The notes beneath the pieces were generated by a model. It searched no databases, was not told where the DNA came from, and was given only the letters and a program-made list of their open reading frames with translations. The translations under genes were made by a program, and so were the position numbers. From a bacterium (GTDB taxonomy: Bacteria > Bacillota_I > Bacilli_A > RFN20 > DUOZ01), in the NCBI GenBank assembly GCA_012838555.1, contig DUOZ01000036.1, positions 1 to 34,375 of the forward strand: a stretch of 34,375 nt of DNA, given 5' to 3'. Of this stretch, positions 1,860 through 31,703 are shown piece after piece (the first letter of the stretch is position 1; each line of letters opens with the position of its first letter).

Positions 1860-1884
1860 AAAGGCCTTAACGGCCTCATTTTTA
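1859..1884. terminator. Bidirectional terminator between convergent genes
   Basis: The stem AGGCC (1862-1866) pairs with GGCCT (1872-1876) around loop TTAAC. An A run lies to the left and a T run to the right, so it can end transcription from both the unknown anchored gene and the leftward cupin gene, whose stop codon is at 1882-1884. Confidence 0.85.
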
Positions 1885-2388
1885 CATATGATGATTTTCT
1901 AGTGCTTCTTTTTTAGTATGATGGATTGTTCCTTTAGGATGTTGAACTGGAGCATAGATTGAATATAACTTGATAGGTGTATTACCAACATTAATTAAAT
2001 TATGCCATTTACCAGCTGGGACGATGAAAATATCATCTTCTTTTACGTGTTGTCTAAAGTCTAAATTATCTTTACTATTACCCATTAAGACCATACCTTG
2101 ACCTTCTTCGATTCGAATGAATTGATCAATATTAGGATGTATTTCTAGTCCAATGTCGTCTCCAACAGGGATTGACATTAAAGTAAGTTGTAAATGATTA
2201 CCCGTCCATAAGGTTGTACGGAAATTATTATTGTTAACAGTTGCTTCTTCTATATCAATGACAAATGGATTAGGTCCATAATCCATTAATGTTGCTTGAC
2301 GATATAAATAAGGTTGAGGGAACACTGGATAAAAAATAAATGGGTTGTAATAATAGTATGGGTATAAATACGGATTTAAATTATACAT
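1882..2388 (-). CDS. Cupin-domain protein with Tyr/Pro-rich N-terminus, probable spore coat protein
   Basis: The 168-residue protein has a Tyr/Pro/Phe-rich N-terminus (about residues 1-30, including a YYYY run), then a single cupin beta-barrel. Cupin motif 1 is visible as GLEIHPNIDQF..EEGQG and motif 2 as PAGKWHNLINVGN, giving likely metal ligands His, Gln/Asp, Glu and His. The barrel resembles cupins often annotated as mannose-6-phosphate isomerase-like in Bacillus and Clostridium, but an enzyme activity is not shown. The low-complexity Tyr-rich tail resembles coat proteins, and the gene has a sigma-K-type promoter. Start at 2388 (ATG) is chosen over an upstream TTG at 2394, because GGAAGG lies 7 bases before it. 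The spore-coat role is inferred from tail and promoter together. Confidence 0.82.
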   Translation of the reverse strand: MYNLNPYLYPYYYYNPFIFYPVFPQPYLYRQATLMDYGPNPFVIDIEEATVNNNNFRTTLWTGNHLQLTLMSIPVGDDIGLEIHPNIDQFIRIEEGQGMVLMGNSKDNLDFRQHVKEDDIFIVPAGKWHNLINVGNTPIKLYSIYAPVQHPKGTIHHTKKEALENHHM

Positions 2389-2416
2389 TAGCAAACCTTC
2401 CTTTCTTACCTAATAT

Positions 2417-2445
2417 TAAGATATGAGTATTGCCTAGTTTAGGTG
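2417..2445 (-). promoter_or_regulatory. Sigma-K-type promoter for the cupin gene
   Basis: On the minus strand CACC (2445-2442) is followed by a 16-base spacer and CATATCTTA (2425-2417). This matches the Bacillus sigma-K consensus mACm - 16 - CATAnnnTA at every defined position. Transcription would start near 2410, leaving room for the ribosome binding site. No comparable sigma-A promoter is visible. Sigma-K acts in the mother cell late in sporulation. Confidence 0.6.
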
Positions 2446-12525: not shown

Positions 12526-12549
12526 AAAAAACCACCTTTCAGGTGGTTA
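12526..12549 (-). terminator. Terminator of the ATP-grasp gene
   Basis: An 8-bp stem (12548-12541 with 12537-12530, minus strand) with a 3-base loop is followed by six T. It overlaps the stop codon of the ATP-grasp gene. Confidence 0.88.
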
Positions 12550-13401
12550 AGTTAGATACTTTTTAATGGCTTTTATAAAGTCTTCAACATGACTAGGTGA
12601 AACATGGAAATATAGATTTGGCTCTATAAATCCTGTTTTAACTAATAATAGTTTGCCATTATCATTAACATAATCTATTTTTGCATATACAGGTGCAAAT
12701 TCATAAACGCTCATTACTTGATTACAAAACTCAATTTCATCATAACTAGGATTATATAATTCCTCTTCTTCTTTTACTGATAAGGTAATATCATCGGTTA
12801 TTGGCTTTCTTTTAACTGCAAAAGAATAAACACCATCAAAATACATCGCACTTATTTCTCCATTTTCTTTTACATTATGTATGTATGGTTGCACTAGTAT
12901 TGGTGTTTTTTTATTAATTGGTAAGTCACTAATTGTTTGATATATTTGTTCTATTTGGTCTTTTTTAAAGTGATAAGTTCTTAATCCTTTCGCTCCAAGT
13001 GTGTGTTTAATAACAATATCATCATAATTACAATTATTAATCACTGCGATTAAATCACTGAGGCTATCGGCTATTTGGGTCGGTATGATTGATATACCTT
13101 TGTTTTCAAGTTTCTTTAGATATAGTTTATTACAATTATTTTTAATTACTTCTTCGTTATTAATTAAGGTTGTTTTAGTTGAAACATCACTAACCCAATT
13201 TAAAAATGAATCTACATTATCAATATAATCACAAGCAGAACGAAGAATAACTAAGTCATAATATTCCCACTTTGTGTTAGGATCGTTCCAAACTTCTTTA
13301 GTAACGCTATAACCATGATTTTTTAAGGCGTTTGCTAATATATCATCACAGGGGCTTTTGTCTTTATATAGATGACAAACTGCCAAAGCTATTTTTTTCA
13401 T
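12547..13401 (-). CDS. ATP-grasp ligase, DcsG/RimK-like
   Basis: The 284-residue protein resembles the ATP-grasp group that includes the D-cycloserine ligase DcsG and prokaryotic glutathione-synthetase-like proteins. The N-terminal pre-ATP-grasp part has CDDILANAL and LVILRSACDY (the usual form is IRSTWDY). The nucleotide-binding part includes VIKHTLGAKGL and LVQPYI..GEISAMYFDGVYSFAVKRKP, and the metal-binding end is GFIEPNLYFH with Glu and Asn. The substrate is unknown; an amide or peptide ligation is expected from the fold. The leftward unit is monocistronic, with its own promoter and terminator. No biosynthetic genes lie next to it, so a natural-product role is not supported. Confidence 0.82.
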   Translation of the reverse strand: MKKIALAVCHLYKDKSPCDDILANALKNHGYSVTKEVWNDPNTKWEYYDLVILRSACDYIDNVDSFLNWVSDVSTKTTLINNEEVIKNNCNKLYLKKLENKGISIIPTQIADSLSDLIAVINNCNYDDIVIKHTLGAKGLRTYHFKKDQIEQIYQTISDLPINKKTPILVQPYIHNVKENGEISAMYFDGVYSFAVKRKPITDDITLSVKEEEELYNPSYDEIEFCNQVMSVYEFAPVYAKIDYVNDNGKLLLVKTGFIEPNLYFHVSPSHVEDFIKAIKKYLT

Positions 13402-29472: not shown

Positions 29473-30951
29473 GTGAATACAAAAGAAATTTTGCGAGATA
29501 TCGGGGCGCGTACCAAAGGGGATATTTATCTTGGCATTGTAGGACCGGTAAGAAGTGGTAAGTCGACATTTATTAAGCGTTTTATGGAAGTGGGTATTAT
29601 TCCAGGCATTAGTGATGAGTATGAAAAAGAAAGAAGTATTGATGAACTACCACAATGTGGTGCTGGTAAGAGTATAATGACAACTGAGCCTAAATTCGTC
29701 CCTTCAAGTGCCGTTAAAGTTAATGTTGATGATAATATTGCTGTTAATGTTAGATTAATTGATTGTGTAGGCTTTGTCTTTGATGAAGCTAAAGGCTATA
29801 AAGACGAAGAAGGAGAACGAATGGTTAAAACACCATGGTTTGAAGATTCAATACCTTTCTCTCAAGCTGCTAAAATTGGAACTGAAAAAGTAATTAATGA
29901 ACATTCAACTATCGGTGTTGTTGTTACTACTGATGGAACAATCTTAGACTTCCCAAGAAGTTGCTATGTAAGGCCAGAACAAGAGGTTGTTGAGCAACTT
30001 AAAGAAATTGGAAAACCTTTCTTAATTATTGTTAATTCTAAACAACCACAAAGTGAATCATGCTTAAATATCGTTAATGAATTAAGAGATAAACATGATG
30101 TTCCAGTTTTACCATTAAATGTTGAAACTCTTAATATTGATGAATTTGCAACGATCTTAAAAGAAGCATTATATGAATTCCCATTAGTCCAAATTGATGT
30201 TTCATTACCATCTTGGGTTGAAGTCTTAAATAATGATCATTGGTTAAAACAAAGCATTAATACTTCAGTAGAAGAAGCAATGAATAAAGCTCAAAAGATT
30301 AGAGATGCTGAAAGAATCGGTGACATTATTAAAGATAATGAATTTATTACTACTTATGAATTAGCATCTTTAGATACCTCGACTGGAAATGTTTTAGTCA
30401 ATTTAGATGTTAGAGATGGTTTATATGAAGAAATCATGAAGGAAATCGCCGGTTTTGATTTAGATAATCCAAGTGATTTATTACGTGCATTACAAGATTA
30501 TGCTAATTTAAGAAAAGAATTCTCTGGTTTAGGAGATGCTATTAGAATGGCCAAAACAACCGGATATGGTTTTGCAACTCCTTGTATAGATGATATTAAA
30601 GTTAGTAAACCTGAATTAGTTAAACAGGGTGGAAGATACGGAGTTAAAATCAAAGCCAATGCTCCTTCTTTACACATTGTAAGAGTAGATGTTGAGACAT
30701 CTTTTGAACCAATCATAGGTACAAAAGAACAAAGTGAAGAGTTAATTAATTACTTAAGTGAAGGTTATGAAGATAATCCTCAAATCATCTTTGAATCAAG
30801 TCTCTTTGGTAGAAAACTAGGTGATATCATTAAAGATGGAGTTAATGCTAAATTGATGGTATTACCAGAACCAACTAGAGCTAAGATCCAACATATCATG
30901 AAAACCCTCGCCAATAAGGGTAAAACCAATATTATCGCAATTATTTTCTAA
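29473..30951 (+). CDS. spoIVA: Stage IV sporulation protein A, spore coat base ATPase
   Basis: ATPase that polymerises on the forespore outer membrane to form the coat basement layer and is required for cortex formation. Walker A is GPVRSGKST (24-32), followed by PEKxx-like family blocks: DELPQCGAGKSIMTTEPKF, LIDCVGFVFDEAKGYKDE, EHSTIGVVVTTDGT, and the C-terminal end IIAIIF. At 492 residues it matches Bacillus SpoIVA and aligns along its whole length. The GTG start is supported by AGGGGGT 8 bases upstream. It is the clearest sign that the organism forms, or descends from formers of, endospores. A strong terminator follows. Confidence 0.97.
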   Translation: MNTKEILRDIGARTKGDIYLGIVGPVRSGKSTFIKRFMEVGIIPGISDEYEKERSIDELPQCGAGKSIMTTEPKFVPSSAVKVNVDDNIAVNVRLIDCVGFVFDEAKGYKDEEGERMVKTPWFEDSIPFSQAAKIGTEKVINEHSTIGVVVTTDGTILDFPRSCYVRPEQEVVEQLKEIGKPFLIIVNSKQPQSESCLNIVNELRDKHDVPVLPLNVETLNIDEFATILKEALYEFPLVQIDVSLPSWVEVLNNDHWLKQSINTSVEEAMNKAQKIRDAERIGDIIKDNEFITTYELASLDTSTGNVLVNLDVRDGLYEEIMKEIAGFDLDNPSDLLRALQDYANLRKEFSGLGDAIRMAKTTGYGFATPCIDDIKVSKPELVKQGGRYGVKIKANAPSLHIVRVDVETSFEPIIGTKEQSEELINYLSEGYEDNPQIIFESSLFGRKLGDIIKDGVNAKLMVLPEPTRAKIQHIMKTLANKGKTNIIAIIF

Positions 30952-31022: not shown

Positions 31023-31703
31023 ATGCGAATACTTGTTTATGACCGTGGAGCAAATGTTGTAAGAGTTTTTAATAGAAGATTAACAGATGCAATGCCTTAT
31101 ATTAAAAATAGGTATTTAACAGTTGATGAGTTTCGAGGTTCATCAAATACTGATATTTTATGGACATCCAGAGAGTTTATGGAAAATTTCAATAAATTAA
31201 GAGAAAAATGGGGGAGTCCGATTCCAGTTAGATATGCATTTAAACGGATTTGGGAAGGTGGTCATAGTGGTCAATCTCAACACTATGCTGGTTTAGCAAT
31301 TGATATGGCTCAAGGAATGCCTAAATCAAAAAGAGATAAATTAAGAAACTTAGCTTCAAGAATGGGAATTTTTTCTTATGTAGAACCAGCTTCTTTAACA
31401 CCAACTTGGGTTCATATTGATAATCGTTTTGGTAAAGCTGCTTGCGGAGCAGGCTATCCAGTAGTTAGGAATGGTTCAAGAGGTAATTATGTAATGGTAC
31501 TTCAAGATGCCTTACTTAATTTAGGATATACATCAGTTAGAAATATTGATGGTATTATGGGGAGAAGAACGACTAATGCGTTAGGTAACTATCAAGACAA
31601 CAATAACTTACCACGAACTGAAGAAACTAATTGTCCAACTTGGCAATCAATCACATCGAGAGTGGTTGGTAAAGGAGTATCTCCAACTACATATTTACCA
31701 TAA
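31023..31703 (+). CDS. M15-type peptidase with peptidoglycan-binding domain
   Basis: Probable zinc DD- or LD-type cell wall peptidase. The catalytic domain (about 25-140) has SQHYAGLAIDMA, giving H87 and D94, and WVHID, giving H131: the zinc ligands of the M15 family (SxHxxGxAxD and WxHxD). A peptidoglycan-binding domain (about 147-213) with VRNGSRGNYVMVLQDALLNLG and DGIMGRRTTNAL follows. No signal peptide is present, which is unusual for a wall enzyme and would suit production inside the mother cell or spore. It follows spoIVA after a terminator and may have a sigma-K-like promoter. The spore link is inference. Confidence 0.85.
   Translation: MRILVYDRGANVVRVFNRRLTDAMPYIKNRYLTVDEFRGSSNTDILWTSREFMENFNKLREKWGSPIPVRYAFKRIWEGGHSGQSQHYAGLAIDMAQGMPKSKRDKLRNLASRMGIFSYVEPASLTPTWVHIDNRFGKAACGAGYPVVRNGSRGNYVMVLQDALLNLGYTSVRNIDGIMGRRTTNALGNYQDNNNLPRTEETNCPTWQSITSRVVGKGVSPTTYLP

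Follow-up and report, generated by a model that had tools for sequence, protein, structure and literature searches.

A Tyr-rich cupin behind a sigma-K-type promoter as a candidate spore coat protein in a little-known Bacilli lineage

Spore Cupins and Their Relatives

Cupins that are controlled by sigma-K or associated with the spore are already known as a kind. The B. subtilis cupin YrkC, which has a homologue in C. lentocellum, is listed in the SigK regulon and among the core sporulation genes of Bacilli and Clostridia (PMC3416734), and in Clostridium sordellii mass spectrometry detected the cupin domain protein H477_1872 among the proteins of the outer spore (PMC5927469). Matched by description and not by sequence, YrkC is likely homologous to the armed cupin described here, and H477_1872 is probably a relative of it. 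The Bacillus spore oxalate decarboxylase OxdD, likewise a cupin, is associated with the spore and has a putative sigma-K promoter (PMC5812249), but it belongs to a different subfamily. OxdD is a bicupin with a His/His/Glu manganese site per domain, while the protein studied here is a single barrel with other ligands and has neither the second cupin domain nor the His/His/Glu/His manganese sites that characterise OxdD.

The closest solved structure is that of BH2720 from Bacillus halodurans (PDB 2oa2), a structural-genomics cupin with the same core and the same Glu/His/Gln/His residues, although its solved chain has no Tyr-rich arm, its crystal is metal-free and no link to sporulation is reported there. 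XcTcmJ (PDB 3h50/2gu9) has an H-x4-Q...H zinc site at the same fold positions, yet it is only about 24% identical to the cupin of this study, is named for polyketide synthesis and is no spore protein. A literature search on Tyr-rich coat cupins found nothing direct; what is new here is the family-level description, which is missing from the databases searched. The original prediction, that such a protein is not usually annotated as a coat component, holds for these databases, in which an NCBIfam profile search with the cupin protein matched no family, but not for the yrkC cupin, which already stands in the SigK regulon (PMC3416734).

The gene lies in the window, i.e., the whole stretch of 34,375 nucleotides that was analysed, and belongs to a draft genome of 1.63 Mb in 151 contigs, with a completeness of 94.7%. 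Altogether, the evidence is best explained by a model, to which we assign a probability of about 0.82, in which this gene encodes a sigma-K-dependent mother-cell cupin that is built by its arm into the coat or exosporium. At a late stage of sporulation, SigK would transcribe the one-gene unit in the mother cell, and the product would be deposited in the spore coat or exosporium. There, the N-terminal arm, which comprises ~35 probably unfolded residues rich in Tyr, Pro and Asn, would dock the protein and perhaps be cross-linked through its tyrosines, while the barrel would serve as the functional head, whose presumed Glu/His/Gln/His metal site could let the coat bind metal or act enzymatically on small molecules. 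Dityrosine-type cross-linking is a property of Tyr-rich coat proteins.

The Cupin Gene and Its Product

The features of the locus, all on the minus strand, are the following:

1882 to 2388, minus strand: cupin gene, an open frame with an ATG start, 168 aa (Cupin_2 48.2 bits, curated cut-off 27.2; 2oa2 E 4.4e-55)
1882 to 2283, minus strand: cupin barrel, residues 36-168 plus stop (AlphaFold pLDDT; invariant columns)
2284 to 2388, minus strand: N-terminal Tyr/Pro-rich arm, residues 1-35 (10 Tyr, 6 Pro; predicted disorder)
2396 to 2403, minus strand: ribosome-binding site AAGGAAGG, 7 nt upstream of the start codon
2417 to 2445, minus strand: sigma-K-type promoter, -35 CACC (2442-2445), 16-nt spacer, -10 CATATCTTA (2417-2425); exact match, conserved in homologues
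1861 to 1877, minus strand: intrinsic terminator-like hairpin after the cupin stop codon (2 found in the scanned region, one per strand, with 0.3 expected by chance)

The cupin open frame is genuine. Its product belongs to the Pfam family Cupin_2 (PF07883), scoring well above the curated cut-off, and phmmer matches residues 34-167 to 2oa2/BH2720, a similarity that extends over the whole core and places the protein among BH2720-like cupins. The mechanical list of open reading frames starts the gene at a TTG at 2394, which appears less likely than the ATG at 2388, preferred because AAGGAAGG is located 7 nt upstream of it. Since the neighbour on one side is convergent and the dnaD-like gene on the other side is divergent, the cupin gene forms a single transcription unit, which the terminator-like hairpin at 1861-1877 is predicted to close. 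Around the named loci, no conserved neighbours of the cupin gene were found, only common paralogous families, and genomic context thus points to no partner.

The protein had been described as a metal-binding cupin barrel with a Tyr/Pro-rich tail. The Tyr/Pro-rich segment does exist, but it is N-terminal and not a tail. In the AlphaFold model (38 homologues), pLDDT falls below 50 for most of residues 1-33, which are predicted to be disordered apart from isolated residues, while most of the barrel has values of about 95 or higher. The ligands of the barrel are not the textbook ones, as set out below.

The Barrel, Its Presumed Metal Site and Domain Fusions

The motif-1 His-x-His...Glu is typical, not obligatory, for the Cupin_2 superfamily. 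The textbook ligands His/His/Glu/His, including this motif, were not found in the window cupin, which has Glu/His/Gln/His in the arrangement E82-x-H84-x4-Q89 instead; E82, H84, Q89 and H129 are invariant in 63 homologues. In XcTcmJ, His41, Gln46 and His80 bind zinc (PMC2954225), and because these ligands show the same H-x4-Q...H pattern, it is plausible that the four residues form a metal site. The top Foldseek match of the cupin model is 2oa2, and the nearest folds are functionally mixed.

Several homologues carry additional domains. Ten Bacillaceae loci were grouped as helical fusions, and nine carry a whole domain of ~130 aa between the start and the cupin (L064, L067, L081, L098, L103, L104, L108, L112 and L116), while L056 seemingly retains only part of it, its start having been called late. 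The model of L103 shows four confident helices in this domain, together with weak, below-cut-off Rubrerythrin matches. Because a fold search with the model of the helical fusion matched nothing but cupins and unrelated folds, it is on the four predicted helices and these weak matches that the description of the Bacillaceae domain as perhaps ferritin-like rests. In the Paenactinomyces homologue (L109:5665-6423), the cupin is fused to a DUF326-like Cys-rich helical domain that scores just under the cut-off.

Several plasmid copies of the cupin lie beside metal transport genes, namely FetAB-like, VIT, P-type ATPase/ArsR/CDF and CDF genes. The copies in question (L153, L157, L162, L169 and L171) are for the most part short forms in lactic-acid bacteria and S. 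aureus. Together, these neighbours, the fusions and the likeness of the metal site lean towards metal chemistry for the cupin, and the barrel is a candidate for a metal-dependent activity of the coat. A wider proposal, tentative and a little short of even odds, is that the protein represents an unnamed family of sigma-K coat metalloproteins in Bacilli and Clostridia, in which a Glu/His/Gln/His cupin is combined with an exchangeable N-terminal module and acts as a coat-borne metal store or a metal-dependent protective enzyme. The module would be the Tyr-rich arm, the arm plus a four-helix and possibly ferritin-like domain in Bacillaceae, or the DUF326-like Cys-rich helical domain in Paenactinomyces.

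It has also to be considered that the barrel may be catalytic in the coat, with a dioxygenase- or decarboxylase-like activity as the selected function, which would refine the coat model. This is possible but rather doubtful: the invariance of E82, H84, Q89 and H129, the binding of zinc by the same H-x4-Q...H set in XcTcmJ (PMC2954225) and the precedent of OxdD as an enzymatic spore cupin all argue for it, whereas activity has been demonstrated for no close relative, the BH2720 crystal lacks metal and the nearest folds are of mixed function.

The Tyr-Rich Arm and the Link to Sporulation

A homologue was scored as armed if its N-terminal extension reached 15 aa or more and contained three or more Tyr. 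By this measure, the Tyr-rich low-complexity segment is limited to spore formers: 77 of the 83 homologues from spore-forming lineages carry it, while all 13 from bacteria without endospores are armless (p 7e-12), as are six of the spore-lineage homologues. The 13 comprise two from spoIVA-negative Bacilli, one from Phocaeicola and ten plasmid copies, the latter from lactic-acid bacteria, Listeria, S. aureus, Streptomyces and Sphingobium. The arms of the homologues consist of 16% Tyr, 11% Pro and 11% Asn, as against 3.6% Tyr in the core. In Phocaeicola faecalis (L082:5872-6417), the same cupin has a lipoprotein-like leader in place of the Tyr-rich arm. A homologue with an arm on a Stenotrophomonas plasmid (L156) was set aside, being very similar to a Lysinibacillus plasmid gene (L164) with the same neighbours, a similarity that points to recent transfer or mis-assembly. 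A tree of 105 cores has little resolution, with 19/102 inner branches well supported, but places most short non-spore members in separate clades.

The presence of the gene is likewise linked to sporulation, for which spoIVA was used as a marker and is itself encoded in the window:

29473 to 30951, plus strand: spoIVA, ATPase of the coat basement layer (TIGR02836 614 bits), about 27 kb from the cupin gene

Of ten genomes that were checked from behind the named loci, nine have spoIVA, some with armless cupins among them, the exception being Phocaeicola. In a phylum sample of 392 genomes, the cupin orthologue occurs in 11 and spoIVA in 68, with both in 9 (p 4e-6). The cupin gene is thus an accessory gene that goes with sporulation: spores can be made without it, because only 9/68 spoIVA-positive genomes of the sample have it, and within its own order it is found in 2 of 22 spoIVA-positive genomes. 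The chemistry of the cupin is not spore-specific, since its core also occurs, armless, in bacteria that make no endospores. The design of arm plus barrel suggests a simple and testable rule, in which a Tyr/Pro-rich arm would mark a coat-targeted cupin and its absence a cytoplasmic one.

One can also imagine a SigK-dependent cupin that never joins the coat but acts as a soluble protein of the mother cell, where it might, for instance, handle metals or serve detoxification while the coat matures. The SigK regulon is not confined to coat genes, as dpaA shows, and the position of plasmid family members beside metal transport genes would suit such a role. However, it would leave unexplained the disordered Tyr/Pro-rich arm of the spore-lineage members, when other members are armless, and a cupin likened to this one by description is among the outer spore proteins of C. 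sordellii (PMC5927469), so that we regard a purely soluble protein as unlikely. A protein docked in the coat or exosporium through its arm remains the preferred interpretation, and it is to its expression that the promoter evidence relates.

The Promoter and Its Conservation

The gene had been predicted to follow a perfect sigma-K-type promoter, and this was borne out: CACC-16-CATATCTTA agrees with mACm-16-CATAnnnTA at all defined positions and is located near the start codon. The pattern has 3 matches in the window as against 0.63 expected from shuffles, the other two being inside coding frames. A match somewhere in the window is unremarkable, because 0.63 are expected by chance; the chance of one within the ~23 positions proper for a promoter -10 is about 2e-4 (arithmetic from the window expectation).

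Genome-wide, mACm-16-CATAnnnTA has 32 matches, compared with 9 for the reversed control. Among the 30 of the 32 that were inspected, only five lie outside long frames, each with a gene start 16-28 nt downstream. One of the five is the cupin promoter. The other four stand before the genes for a dipicolinate synthase A, whose matches to the DpsA/DpaA models (E 6e-59 and 2e-50) stay under the cut-off, a CwlD-related amidase (E 3.5e-9), a sporulation peptide of the YjcZ family (26.8 bits, cut-off 21.35) and a multi-LysM protein that matches the SafA/ExsA coat-assembly domain model (143.8 bits, cut-off 67.85). The loci of these four further promoters are L147, L124, L127 and L141. The gene dpaA, i.e., spoVFA, is listed in the sigma-K regulon (PMC3416734). 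As the intergenic matches include dpaA and other spore genes, the organism itself therefore uses the mACm-16-CATAnnnTA consensus for late spore genes, and the standard sigma-K promoter code is still in use in a little-known lineage of Bacilli whose genome is small.

Conservation was assessed in 86 homologues with a start codon and upstream DNA, drawn from 80 named loci plus phylum relatives, with 472 neighbouring genes with non-coding upstream DNA as the control. CATAnnnTA occurs within 130 nt upstream of 52/86 homologues and 38/472 neighbours. The count of sigma-K-like sites before homologues, which had been proposed as a check of the prediction, was strongly positive: the full promoter precedes 34 of the 86 homologues but only 4 of the 472 neighbours (p 1.7e-26), and averages 0.24 in base-shuffled homologue upstreams. 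Because the homologues are related, the p-values overstate independence, and the dereplicated figure, obtained after removing cores more than 75% identical, is safer (11/30 vs 4/472, p 6e-12). The -10 lies in the fixed interval -50 to -28 in 49/86 homologues and 17/472 neighbours (p 3e-32), and the exact -10 is missing in about 40% of homologues. The homologue of a relative from another family of the same order (genome G003; 58% identical) has CATAGTATA at -34, with the AC one base closer. Judged by these upstream regions, the predicted spore-specific promoter of the cupin family is conserved from Clostridium to Bacillus. Combined with domain evidence, it could allow hundreds of spore-former entries named 'cupin domain-containing protein' to be assigned to the late mother-cell programme.

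Sigma Factors and Sporulation Genes of the Genome

Profile matches show that the genome encodes SigK, SigE, SigF, SigG and SpoIVA. Each of the four sigma factors is best matched to its own model, in most cases with a score short of the equivalog cut-off, which is no surprise in a divergent lineage; SigK scores 294.5 bits with NF004471 (cut-off 252) and 283 bits with TIGR02846, below its cut-off of 298.65. Sigma-E and sigma-K promoters have a common -10 and differ in one -35 base, T versus C, which is read by Gln versus Arg (PMC517825). The discriminating residue is Arg in the SigK of this genome (ISRSYVSR) and Gln in its SigE (ISQSYISR), and the -35 of the cupin promoter carries the C. The sporulation and mother-cell reading of the original prediction is supported by this Arg-bearing SigK, by the same promoter at late spore genes and by an arm that tracks sporulation.

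Given the common -10 element (PMC517825), it could be argued that sigma-E, instead of or together with sigma-K, drives the gene and that its product is an early coat component. This appears slightly less probable still than a soluble protein: the base that separates the two promoter types is C here (CACC), the corresponding column of 49 aligned homologue promoters has C in 35, A in 13, G in 1 and T in 0, and the full sigma-E pattern precedes only 2/86 homologues. That the gene is an ordinary vegetative cupin behind a chance look-alike is very improbable, for although the pattern is expected 0.6 times per window, it is conserved, position included, in homologues of both Bacilli and Clostridia, the remaining intergenic matches of the genome have a spore context and the cupin gene is linked to spoIVA.

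Beyond the candidate coat cupin itself, the genome offers some minor observations. Spo0A was not found in this genome (G000), in which Spo0A_C is absent and the best receiver match is a YesN-type regulator, nor was it found in the relative G003, while a full-length match exists in the other spoIVA-positive relatives among the 31 sampled genomes; both genomes are drafts of ~150 contigs, and an assembly gap is the default explanation. In G003, spoIVA occupies two overlapping frames (C34:1076-2538), from a frameshift or an assembly error. At 12547-13401, the window encodes an ATP-grasp protein nearest to the D-cycloserine synthetase DcsG, far below the cut-off (138.8 vs 360 bits). The protein at 31023-31703, directly downstream of spoIVA, has a SleB-like peptidoglycan-binding C-terminus and an N-terminus that by eye has the look of a D-Ala-D-Ala-carboxypeptidase domain, and is possibly a spore cortex enzyme.
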